Shown here piece after piece: positions 233 through 62,671 of a DNA stretch of 64,000 nucleotides; positions within the stretch are counted from its first letter, which is position 1; the number at the start of each line of letters is the position of its first letter. Origin of the DNA: Chloroflexota bacterium (GTDB lineage Bacteria; Chloroflexota; UBA11872). Under the pieces are notes generated by a model. The model had not been told where the DNA came from. It did not search any database and saw only the letters and a program-made list of their open reading frames with translations. The stretch spans positions 1 through 64,000 of the forward strand of contig JAJECS010000031.1 in assembly GCA_022821905.1 (NCBI GenBank). The letters run 5' to 3'. The position numbers and the translations under genes were made by a program.

Positions 233-2116
233 CTACTCCGGTAGCCAGCTGCGGTCCAGGAGGATGCGCGCTTCGCCGACACGGCGGGTGACGGCCCGGG
301 CGTCGAGGTGCTCCAGGAACGCCAGGACGTACTTGCGGCTGGTGCCCAACTGGTCGCGGAGCTGGCTCACCGTCACCTGCTCGTTTTCGGCGAAGGCCTC
401 GCCAATGGCCTGCCGCCAGCGCGCATAGCCCGCCCGCGTCAGGCCGAACGTCGGCGTGATGCGCACAAGCTCACCCGCAGCCGCCAGGGAGTCGAGGAGC
501 GCGGTTGTGGCGCCCTGAGCGCCTGCCAGGGCGGGCAGGTCCGGCGGTGCGAAGCCGCCCTCATCGAGCGCCGCCAGCAGGCGGGCGGCTTCCGGGCCGC
601 GCGGCACCGCCGCTTGGCCCGGTGGCAAGACTCGACCTTCCTTGAGGACGAGCAGGCCATCGGCAGCCATGCCCTCGAGCAGCGCCGCGACGAGCGGCGC
701 GGGGGCTCCCAGCTGCCGGGGCAACGCGGCCCGCGGCAGGCCGGCGCTCGGCCCAAGCAAGGCGTCAATGCGCCGGCTCAGTGCGTCGACGGCGGCAGTC
801 GGCGCGGCGTAGCCGCCCACAATCCTCAGCCGGTCTTCGCGCTCCATCTGGCCCACGATTGCCGTCACGTCGTCGAGGCTCACCTCGGTGCGGCGTGCGA
901 TCTCGTCCGGCGTAAGCGGGCCGGCGGCCTCGACCGCCGCGGCCACCAGCTCGACGGGCGGGGCGCGGCGGGCGCGTTCCAGGGCCTCCAGCGCGGCGGG
1001 GTCGCCGCGCGGCACGTGGCGGGCCGCCGCGCGCACGATCTCGCCGCCGCCAATGGTCATCGGCGGCGAGAGCCGCCGGATCACATAGGGGTCGCCCTTG
1101 CGGATGGCGACCGCCTCGCCAAGCCGCCACTGGACCCAGCCGGCGCTCCCCGGCTGGATCGGGCCGGCCTCCAGGTAGCGCACCGCGGCCACGGCTTCGG
1201 CCGTGCCCGAGTGCCACGACACCCGCTCCCCGGGTTTCAACGCGCGCGGCGCCGACGGCAGCAGGCGCAGCGTGGCGTCCACGCGTCGCGTCTCGGCGAC
1301 GGCGCCGGGCGCGGCGACCACCGTGCCGCGCGGCACGTCGGCAGGCGCGACGCCGCCGAGGTTCACCGCCACGCGGCGTCCCGGCCAGGCGCGGTCCTCC
1401 GCCGCTCGATGGGTCTGCAAGCCGCGCACGCGTGTTCGCGCGCCACCCGGATACAGATGGACCATGTCGCCCACGTCCAGCGGCCCTCCGGCCAGGGTGC
1501 CGGTCACCACGGTGCCGAAGCCCCGCTGGGTGAAGGCGCGGTCCACCGGCAGTCGCGGTCCGCCGACCTGCGGTCGGGACAACGGCTGTGCGAGCAGCGC
1601 ATCCAGCGCGTTCAGGAGCGCGTCCAGCCCGCGGCCTTCGCGCGCGGACACGGGAACGATTGGCGCGTGGGACAGCGAGCTTGTCGCCAGAGTCTCCCGC
1701 ACCTCCTCTCTGACAAGTTCAAGCCACTCCTCGTCCACCAAGTCCGTCTTGGCCAGCGCGACTACGCCGCGCTCGATGCCCAGCAGCGTCACGATGTCGA
1801 GGTGCTCGCGCGTCTGCGGCATCACGCCCTCATCGGCGGCGACCACGAACAGACAGGCGTCGATCCCGCCCACTCCGGCCAGCATGTTGTGAATGAACCG
1901 CTCGTGCCCCGGAACGTCCACCAGGCTCACCGACCGACCGCTGGGCAGGGTGAGCCAGGCGAAGCCCAGATCGATGGTCATGCCGCGCGCCTTCTCTTCG
2001 GCGAGGCGGTCCGGATCGATGCCGGTGAGCGCGTGGACCAGGGTCGATTTGCCGTGATCGACGTGGCCCGCGGTGCCGACGGTCGCGGCCTGTGGCGCCT
2101 CGGATTCGGCGGTCAC
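233..2116 (-). CDS. selB: Selenocysteine-specific translation elongation factor SelB
   Basis: SelB is a cytosolic GTPase that carries Sec-tRNA(Sec) to ribosomes paused at UGA codons marked by a SECIS hairpin. The 627-residue protein has G1 GHVDHGKS (17-24), G2 around ARGMTID (43-49), G3 DVPGHE (67-72) and G4 AKTD (122-125). EF-Tu-like beta-barrels follow, and the C-terminal half is built of winged helices as expected for SECIS binding. It starts at GTG 2116, sharing GTGA with the end of panC, so the two are translationally coupled. No selA, selD or tRNA-Sec is visible in the window. A UGA-containing selenoprotein gene lies 3.6 kb away (5748-5999), which makes an active Sec pathway likely. Identification is firm. 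Confidence 0.96.
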   Translation of the reverse strand: MTAESEAPQAATVGTAGHVDHGKSTLVHALTGIDPDRLAEEKARGMTIDLGFAWLTLPSGRSVSLVDVPGHERFIHNMLAGVGGIDACLFVVAADEGVMPQTREHLDIVTLLGIERGVVALAKTDLVDEEWLELVREEVRETLATSSLSHAPIVPVSAREGRGLDALLNALDALLAQPLSRPQVGGPRLPVDRAFTQRGFGTVVTGTLAGGPLDVGDMVHLYPGGARTRVRGLQTHRAAEDRAWPGRRVAVNLGGVAPADVPRGTVVAAPGAVAETRRVDATLRLLPSAPRALKPGERVSWHSGTAEAVAAVRYLEAGPIQPGSAGWVQWRLGEAVAIRKGDPYVIRRLSPPMTIGGGEIVRAAARHVPRGDPAALEALERARRAPPVELVAAAVEAAGPLTPDEIARRTEVSLDDVTAIVGQMEREDRLRIVGGYAAPTAAVDALSRRIDALLGPSAGLPRAALPRQLGAPAPLVAALLEGMAADGLLVLKEGRVLPPGQAAVPRGPEAARLLAALDEGGFAPPDLPALAGAQGATTALLDSLAAAGELVRITPTFGLTRAGYARWRQAIGEAFAENEQVTVSQLRDQLGTSRKYVLAFLEHLDARAVTRRVGEARILLDRSWLPE

Positions 2117-5740: not shown

Positions 5741-5756
5741 GCGGGCGTCAGCCCGC
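5741..5756. terminator. Short hairpin between convergent glcF and selenoprotein gene
   Basis: GCGGGC-GTCA-GCCCGC is a perfect 6-bp stem with a 4-base loop. It sits right after the glcF stop and overlaps the stop codon of the convergent SelW-like gene. It has no T-run, so termination is only an inference from position. Confidence 0.4.
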
Positions 5757-5999
5757 GAGCGCCTCCTTGACCAGCGGATAGATCTCGCCTGGCTTGGCGT
5801 GCCGTTTCAACTCACGCTTGGAGAACACCAGCTCGTCGTTAACCTTCACCTCGAACACGCCGCCGCCGGAGGGAATCAGCGTCCACTCCGCCACGTCATT
5901 CGCGAACTCGGTCAGAATCTCCTCCGTCGCACGGACGGCTCTAGGGAGATAGTTTCATTGACTGCAGTATTCGATGGAGACTCGGGCGCCATGCGACAT
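5748..5999 (-). CDS. SelW/Rdx-family selenoprotein with in-frame UGA (Sec15)
   Basis: This gene is read through a UGA codon at 5955-5957, so ordinary ORF calling splits it. The 83-residue product begins MSHGARVSIEYCSQ, then Sec, then NYLPRAVRATEEIL. That gives Cys12-x-x-Sec15, the CxxU redox motif of the SelW/SelT/SelH (Rdx) thioredoxin-like family. The rest matches the family: EWTLIPSGGGVFEVKVNDELVFSKRE and a GEIYPLVKEAL C-terminus. ATG 5999 has AGGGGAG six bases upstream. Directly 3' of the UGA is a bacterial SECIS-like hairpin (5917-5950). The role is probably a thiol oxidoreductase. Because selB is in the same window, UGA is read here as selenocysteine rather than stop. The sequence shows this directly; function is family knowledge. 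Confidence 0.88.
5917..5950 (-). promoter_or_regulatory. Bacterial SECIS-like hairpin for the SelW-like gene
   Basis: On the minus-strand mRNA a lower stem AUCUCC (5950-5945) pairs with GGAGAU (5922-5917). An upper stem CCGUC (5938-5934) pairs with GACGG (5928-5924) and closes the 5-base loop CGUGC. A CUAGAG bulge lies on the 5' side and a single A on the 3' side. The G of the apical GU is 23 bases after the UGA, within the 16-37 nt spacing usual for bacterial SECIS elements. SelB would bind this element. Confidence 0.8.
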
Positions 6000-6126
6000 G
6001 TTGCGCTCCCCTGGATGCGGTTCGAAGTTTCGGCGTGCGATTCCATCGTCGCACGCCGCGCGGCCCGCGCGCACGTCGGGAGCTGAGACCGTTGCGACAG
6101 CTTCAGTCACTCCCGCCGCCCTCCGT

Positions 6127-61415: not shown

Positions 61416-62671
61416 TTACCGAGCTCTCGGCCAACACGCAGGCCATCCTCATGCTGACGGCCCCGTTGATCGTCGGCCGGCGCACGCCAGGGGCCGAAGT
61501 GTTGCAGCCGCGGGAGTACAACAAGCTCGCCCAACTCCTTCACGAGAACAGCCGGGAGCCAGCCGATCTGCTGAGCCCCGAGGCTTCCCAGTTGCTGAAC
61601 GATGACTGGCTAAGCGCCGAAATTGACTCGGAACGGGTCGGCCGGCTCCTCGCCAGGGGCTTCTTGCTCAGCCAAGCCGTCGAACAGTGGCGGCAACGGG
61701 CCATCTGGGTGGTGAGCCGCGCTGACGAGCAGTACCCCCGACGGTTGAAGGCGCGTTTGGGAGGCCATGCGCCCGCCATCCTTTACGGCTGTGGCGACCC
61801 AAACATCCTGGACACCGGTGGCCTTGCCGTCGTCGGCTCACGACATGTGGACGACAAACTCCGGGACTACGCGGCGGGGATCGGCGAGCTCACGGCCAAC
61901 GCCGAATGGACGCTGGTATCCGGCGGCGCGCGGGGAATCGATCAGGCATCCATGCGGGGTGCGCTCGAAGCCGGAGGTCGGGTCGTGGGCGTGCTGAGCA
62001 ACGACCTTCAGCGGGCGGCGCTGCGCCGCGAGCACCGTGAGGTGCTGATGGACGGGCGGCTGGCGCTGGTCTCGCCCTACGATCCCGCGGCGGGCTTCAA
62101 CGTCGGCAATGCGATGCAGCGCAACAAGCTGATCTACGCCCTAGCCGATGCGGGGCTCGTCGCGAGCTCGGATTACAAGAAGGGCGGAACCTGGGCCGGC
62201 GCGGTTGAGCAACTCGATGAGTTGAAGCTCGTGCCGGTCTATGTGCGATCAGACTCGGTAAAGGGGCTTCAGGCGCTCATGGACAAGGGCGCCTACCCAT
62301 GGCCGGATCCTCAAACGCCGGAAGAGTTCTGGGACAAGATCGCGGACAGTCTCGATCAGTCTGTACCCGCGGCCGGTCAGCCCGAGCTCCCCATTGAGGC
62401 CAGCGATGAGCCAGCGGTAATAGCGACCCCACTAGGAGCGCCGGACGAGATGCTCTTTGCCGTGGTTGCCGAGTTAGTGATCGAAATGACCACACCCGCC
62501 CCTAAGTCGTTGGACGAGATTACGAGCGCCCTTGGAGTCTCAAGACCCCAGGCCACGGCGTGGCTGAAGCGTCTGGTCGGCGAGGGCAAGCTGGAAAAAC
62601 AACCGCGCCCCGCCCGCTACCAGCCGGTGACGCAGGCGACTCTGCTGCTCGATCAGCCTAAGGACTCCTAA
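61412..62671 (+). CDS. DprA-like DNA-processing protein
   Basis: The 419-residue protein has a Rossmann-like DprA core: VVGSRH (140-145), SGGARGID (170-177) and the [16 protein letters not shown] (233-248) signature. DprA proteins load RecA on incoming ssDNA in transformation; some relatives act in defence. A linker precedes a C-terminal winged helix (about 355-410: [20 protein letters not shown]). The GTG start overlaps the helicase-PRTase stop by four bases, so the two form one unit. Not a minimal DprA: the N-terminal 130 residues form an extra helical region. Confidence 0.85.

Follow-up and report, generated by a model that had tools for sequence, protein, structure and literature searches.

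SelW-like selenoproteins of bacteria (PF10262) share, besides their family membership, a CxxU motif and a SECIS element placed directly after the UGA codon, as described in passages of PMC1088965, PMC1794560, PMC2398784 and PMC13188914. Publications on the family date back to 2005 or earlier, a passage of PMC1088965 listing 48 SelW-like genes, and it is the most numerous family of the GOS ocean survey, an excerpt of PMC2398784 giving 427 sequences and calling it most abundant together with SelD; SelW-like selenoproteins with CxxU are also listed in parts of PMC1794560 and PMC13188914. Three Chloroflexi selenoproteins in three families are counted, but not named, in a section of PMC1794560, and no Chloroflexota SelW selenoprotein is named in the titles and abstract openings of the papers listed by literature searches, which is weak evidence of absence. 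In this study, a locus in the window, i.e. the whole 64,000-nucleotide stretch of DNA that was analysed, is, on sequence grounds, very probably a functional Chloroflexota gene whose product is a SelW-like selenoprotein with a thioredoxin fold. Compared with the known bacterial SelW-like selenoproteins, the host here is a Chloroflexota MAG, and the register of the hairpin differs between clades. The elements of the reading frame are the following.

5748 to 5999, minus strand: SelW-like (Rdx) selenoprotein gene, 83 codons plus stop, supported by profile matches and kept in relatives
5955 to 5957, minus strand: putative Sec UGA codon, residue 15 of the CxxU motif, supported by the frame and by conservation in relatives
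6006 to 6012, minus strand: probable ribosome binding site AGGGGAG, purine-rich, read from the sequence

The frame runs from the ATG at 5999-5997 to a final TGA stop at 5750-5748, and is crossed by an internal TGA in the context TGC AGT CAA TGA (C12-S-Q-U15), after which 68 codons follow. With this TGA taken as Sec and entered as Cys for the profile programs, the whole product matched Pfam Rdx (PF10262) with an E-value of 1.9e-21 and 76.5 bits (cut-off 22.6), the match spanning the UGA from position 1 to 73 of the 74 profile positions. The NCBIfam model NF041051, named '(seleno)protein', scored 95.3 bits against a cut-off of 88, and TIGR02174 (NCBIfam, SelT/SelW/SelH models) scored 57.9 bits against 34.2. 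Although an ORF list with a minimum of 80 amino acids has no minus-strand frame at the locus, the existence of the NF041051 model qualifies the first-pass claim that the gene is overlooked and would go uncalled by standard annotation. A first-pass annotation had proposed an 83-residue Rdx-family protein with UGA at the second position of CxxC/CxxU, family-like residues continuing for 68 codons beyond it, and a ribosome binding site before the ATG; the frame and the Pfam match agree with the first point, the 68 residues 3' of the UGA match Rdx even when searched alone (E 2.9e-13), and the AGGGGAG run is in keeping with the third, purine runs resembling it being also found in same-genus loci. 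On the opposite strand, an antisense open frame of 95 codons (5799-6086, plus strand) overlies the SelW-like gene; it is not known to be coding, and an ORF caller could choose it instead.

Decoding of UGA as Sec calls upon a dedicated machinery, one gene of which lies in the window.

233 to 2116, minus strand: selB, Sec-specific elongation factor, TIGR00475 match of 311.6 bits against a cut-off of 242.25

The end of selB is 3.6 kb from the SelW-like gene, as the first-pass annotation had it, and the selA, selD and selC genes on whose presence that reading was made to depend were all found, namely selA with 495.3 bits, a Sec-type selD with 379.5 bits and its own UGA in G-A-G-U-A-C-K, and a tRNA-Sec with anticodon UCA (71.3 bits) at 91685-91778 on the contig of the window, so that the Sec-decoding trait of selA, selB, selD and tRNA-Sec is complete in the genome. 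The in-frame TGA of selD is located at L042:1531-1533 (G000:C26). Within the window, ARAGORN detected no tRNA, and Rfam at gathering scores gave no match. A second match to the tRNA-Sec model RF01852, at cut-off with 47 bits (L032, G000:C2:53908-53994), is perhaps an ordinary long-arm tRNA, and 12 weaker RF01852 matches in the same genome fall below cut-off. By established bacterial Sec decoding, SelB carrying Sec-tRNA(UCA) would bind the apical loop of the hairpin, Sec would enter the chain at the UGA where translation would otherwise end, and the Cys12-Sec15 pair would form a putative small thiol/selenol redox centre; the product reads most naturally as a small thiol/selenol oxidoreductase. 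An open frame alone cannot separate Sec from another residue, and the UGA might instead be read as, for example, Trp through a recoded or suppressor tRNA, yet this is very unlikely given the tRNA-Sec (UCA), selA, selB and Sec-type selD of the genome; the window gene itself ends in UGA, its homologues in relatives end variously in TGA, TAA or TAG, and the position in question is Cys in 13 CxxC Rdx rows.

Selenocysteine at this codon was further considered among 121 genomes, comprising the own genome and relatives out to the same phylum. A selA gene was found in 56 of the 57 genomes with UGA-SelW, in 47 of the 64 without it and in 13/13 with CxxC rows, counts that ignore kinship, and this co-occurrence is weak support because selA is also common where UGA-SelW is absent; in G040, which is 77% complete, the UGA gene is present and selA gave no match. 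With respect to gene neighbourhood, the order selB-panC-glcD-glcF-selW-ftsY-rmlA is kept by tblastn in three same-genus loci of 10 kb (L086-L088), and selW lies between glcF and ftsY in the 3.2-kb same-genus loci L002, L003 and L004, L005 and L006 having ftsY and rmlA only and lacking glcF in the 1.5 kb that lie on the opposite side of selW. Among the loci of other genera, ftsY and glcF were found near selW in L008 only, and tblastn with the window proteins detected none of the window neighbour genes in L007, L009-L030 and L089-L101; because no neighbour is widely enough conserved, no functional partner is inferred.

The SelW-like search of these genomes yielded 72 match rows in 70 of the 121 genomes, with one in-frame TGA in 58 rows (57 genomes) and none in 14. 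Among the 56 TGA rows that were read (all but the G080 row and a second G012 row), the TGA sits in C-x-x-TGA without exception. Since 13 of the 14 rows free of stops are CxxC proteins of a different type (C..CGYE...) and the remaining one (G110) is cut by a contig end, no Cys form of the window gene's own type occurs among the rows read, in agreement with a passage of PMC1794560 according to which SelW-like proteins have hardly any Cys homologues, or none, in organisms that use Sec. One UGA SelW-like gene comes from beyond Chloroflexota, namely that of Salsuginibacillus halophilus, with FCMQU (L101:4989-5244). In six same-genus sequences, the variable sites from codon 29 on (55 codons) number 7, 6 and 29 at codon positions 1, 2 and 3, a skew from which coding selection after the UGA follows. 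That the locus is an Rdx pseudogene in decay whose internal TGA is an ordinary nonsense mutation, as might be read from the ORF list (at least 80 amino acids), in which no intact minus-strand frame appears at the locus, is hardly credible beside this codon-position bias, the Rdx match of the downstream part alone, and a single TGA in the matched frame of 57 of the 121 genomes that falls within CxxU in all 56 rows read. The first-pass reading of a SelW/Rdx selenoprotein with a UGA-encoded Sec and an adjacent SECIS is thus supported on both points that could have spoken against it, the machinery being present and close relatives keeping the UGA together with the downstream region rather than a true stop with nothing conserved beyond.

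The predicted fold of the product resembles those of solved SelW-related proteins. The AlphaFold model, computed from 12 sequences with Sec as Cys, has a pLDDT of 91.4 and a pTM of 0.81 and adopts a thioredoxin-like SelW fold, in which C12-S-Q-U15 is predicted at the end of the strand 5-12 and before the helix 18-32. The 21 best-ranked chains, with TM scores of 0.84-0.90 (query-normalised), are all SelW-related or Rdx-type (2fa8, 3dex, 2obk, 2p0g, 2oka, 2ojl), followed in the ranking by MIEN1, thioredoxins and mouse SelW. These solved SelW-related bacterial proteins, which we take to carry Cys at the Sec site, resemble the window product in predicted fold and in sequence (E 6.5e-16 to 1.6e-6), with the difference that the window model carries Cys in place of Sec. 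Mouse SelW (2npb) is distant, having the thioredoxin-like fold in common (TM 0.69) but only a weak sequence match (E 0.05), and a passage of PMC1088965 places the SECIS of eukaryotes in the 3' UTR. That a short peptide ends at the UGA and a separate open reading frame begins downstream, for which only the stop itself speaks, is so improbable as to be dismissed, as a single Rdx domain crosses the UGA and the predicted fold has strand 1 before it and helix 1 after it.

The second component of the proposed selenoprotein gene is an RNA element directly 3' of the UGA.

5917 to 5950, minus strand: bacterial SECIS-like two-stem hairpin, lower stem 5945-5950/5917-5922, upper stem 5934-5938/5924-5928
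5929 to 5933, minus strand: apical loop CGUGC, with its G at +23 (5932)

Folding of the 40 nt 3' of the UGA gives exactly the two-stem hairpin with loop CGUGC and G at +23 that had been proposed, at -11.9 kcal/mol. The bSECIS model, as set out in a part of PMC13188914, comprises an apical loop of 3-9 nt, an upper stem of 4-16 bp, a spacing of 16-37 nt, a G in the first two loop positions and an energy of at most -7.5. The window hairpin conforms to it with a loop of 5 nt, a stem of 5 bp, G second and then U, and 21 nt between UGA and loop, the spacing thereby lying inside bacterial limits as claimed; the energy limit is reached by the two-stem element, the upper stem alone having -5.7. Taken alone, the hairpin is not significant, because its z-score against dinucleotide shuffles is -1.46 and 18 of 200 shuffles fold equally well. 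A 54-nt fold beginning at the UGA favours a different structure (-12.0), and 23% (0.233) of the synonymous re-codings of the window gene (L001) have an upper stem at least as good. The window hairpin by itself is weak evidence, and the case for a SECIS, made from sequences, rests on comparison.

For this comparison, 45 distinct sequences were drawn from the 56 TGA rows read and scanned for hairpins with no energy limit. All 45 have a hairpin that conforms to the model in loop, stem, G and spacing, always 17-22 nt past the UGA, and in 19/45 the upper stem by itself attains -7.5; among the 13 CxxC proteins, six have any such hairpin, two of these at 17-22 nt, and the six include two strong ones (-8.2 and -11.6) placed at 33 and 37 nt. 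Taken singly, 10 of the 45 sequences lie in the lowest 5% of their own synonymous re-codings, the window gene not among them. When each genus read was represented by a single sequence (26 in all), upper-stem energy averaged -8.85, whereas 300 synonymously re-coded sets averaged -4.41 (sd 0.63) and not one was as low; the spacing was 17-22 in 26/26, the re-coded sets having 13.4 such cases on average and 19 at most; a hairpin at any spacing is also common after re-coding (mean 21.5 of 26, maximum 25). Columns 20-24 pair with columns 30-34 in 90.2% of cells, the best slid version attaining 61.8%, and the lower stem pairs in 60%. The covariation score of the upper stem was 0.215 as against 0.142 (sd 0.018) in shuffles, with 0/500 as high, although relatedness alone can exceed shuffles; less telling are pair changes on both sides, equalled in 25/500 shuffles, and pair types, equalled in 476/500. 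Third positions were constant in 12 of the 13 amino-acid-constant codons at 16-28 in the six same-genus sequences, where a single site varies, and in 23 of 45 later on, a constraint that is not hairpin-specific because codons 1-14 are equally constant (12/13); in 19 family sequences, the corresponding counts were 4/12 (codons 16-28), 1/24 (later) and 3/10 (codons 1-14). Because the UGA, the frame and the hairpin recur in relatives, their combination is not due to chance.

The best hairpin lies at 17, 18, 19, 21 and 22 nt in 8, 2, 2, 19 and 14 of the 45 sequences, respectively. All five upper-stem pairs are intact in 33/33 main-register sequences, and main-register pairs are broken only among the 12 sequences at 17-19 nt, a result that is partly circular because the register was chosen by energy. 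The G of column 26 (5932 in the window) is invariant in 45/45, and in the 12 other-register sequences it is not the loop G. Pair 23/31 joins the second base of one codon to the first base of another, and the 33 main-register sequences have UA in 20 (Val-Thr), CG in 10 (Ala-Ala), UG in 3 (Val-Ala) and CA in none (Ala-Thr); the 18 main-register genus representatives have UA in 7, CG in 8 and UG in 3. In the 12 other-register sequences, pair 23/31 is outside the best hairpin and the residues are Val-Ala in 6, Val-Thr in 2, Ala-Ala in 2 and Val-Val in 2. The arguments are evenly balanced for the proposal that the Chloroflexota SelW type has been kept in Sec form, that its coding-region SECIS shifted register between clades (loop at 17, 18, 19 or 21-22 nt), and that the two residues of the main register vary together, steered by RNA pairing and not by the protein alone.

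A scan for other TGA-interrupted frames, requiring at least 40 codons after the TGA and a Cys no more than three residues away, turned up 61 mechanical candidates; the SelW-like gene is among the 45 listed, and inspection by eye found no other convincing candidate among these 45. Elsewhere in the genome, two neighbouring Prx-like (AhpC-TSA) genes (L106 and L107, G000:C8:60146-60511 and 61851-62216) have an in-frame TGA in UxxC context and are likely to be further selenoproteins, 5 of the 11 AhpC-TSA match rows in the genome having one TGA. Neither the DsbA nor the CMD family was matched in the genome, and its formate dehydrogenase matches have no internal stop.

The window gene adds to a published family (SelW-like, PF10262, CxxU) of familiar marine kind, and is in this sense real but ordinary. 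What it contributes is a firm selenoprotein, supported by comparison, in a Chloroflexota lineage, together with a set of 45 sequences in which to see how an RNA signal within a coding region can constrain a protein. A passage of PMC1088965 points out that gene callers readily truncate or overlook genes that contain an internal UGA, so that the extent to which such uncultured bacteria use selenium is easily underrated.
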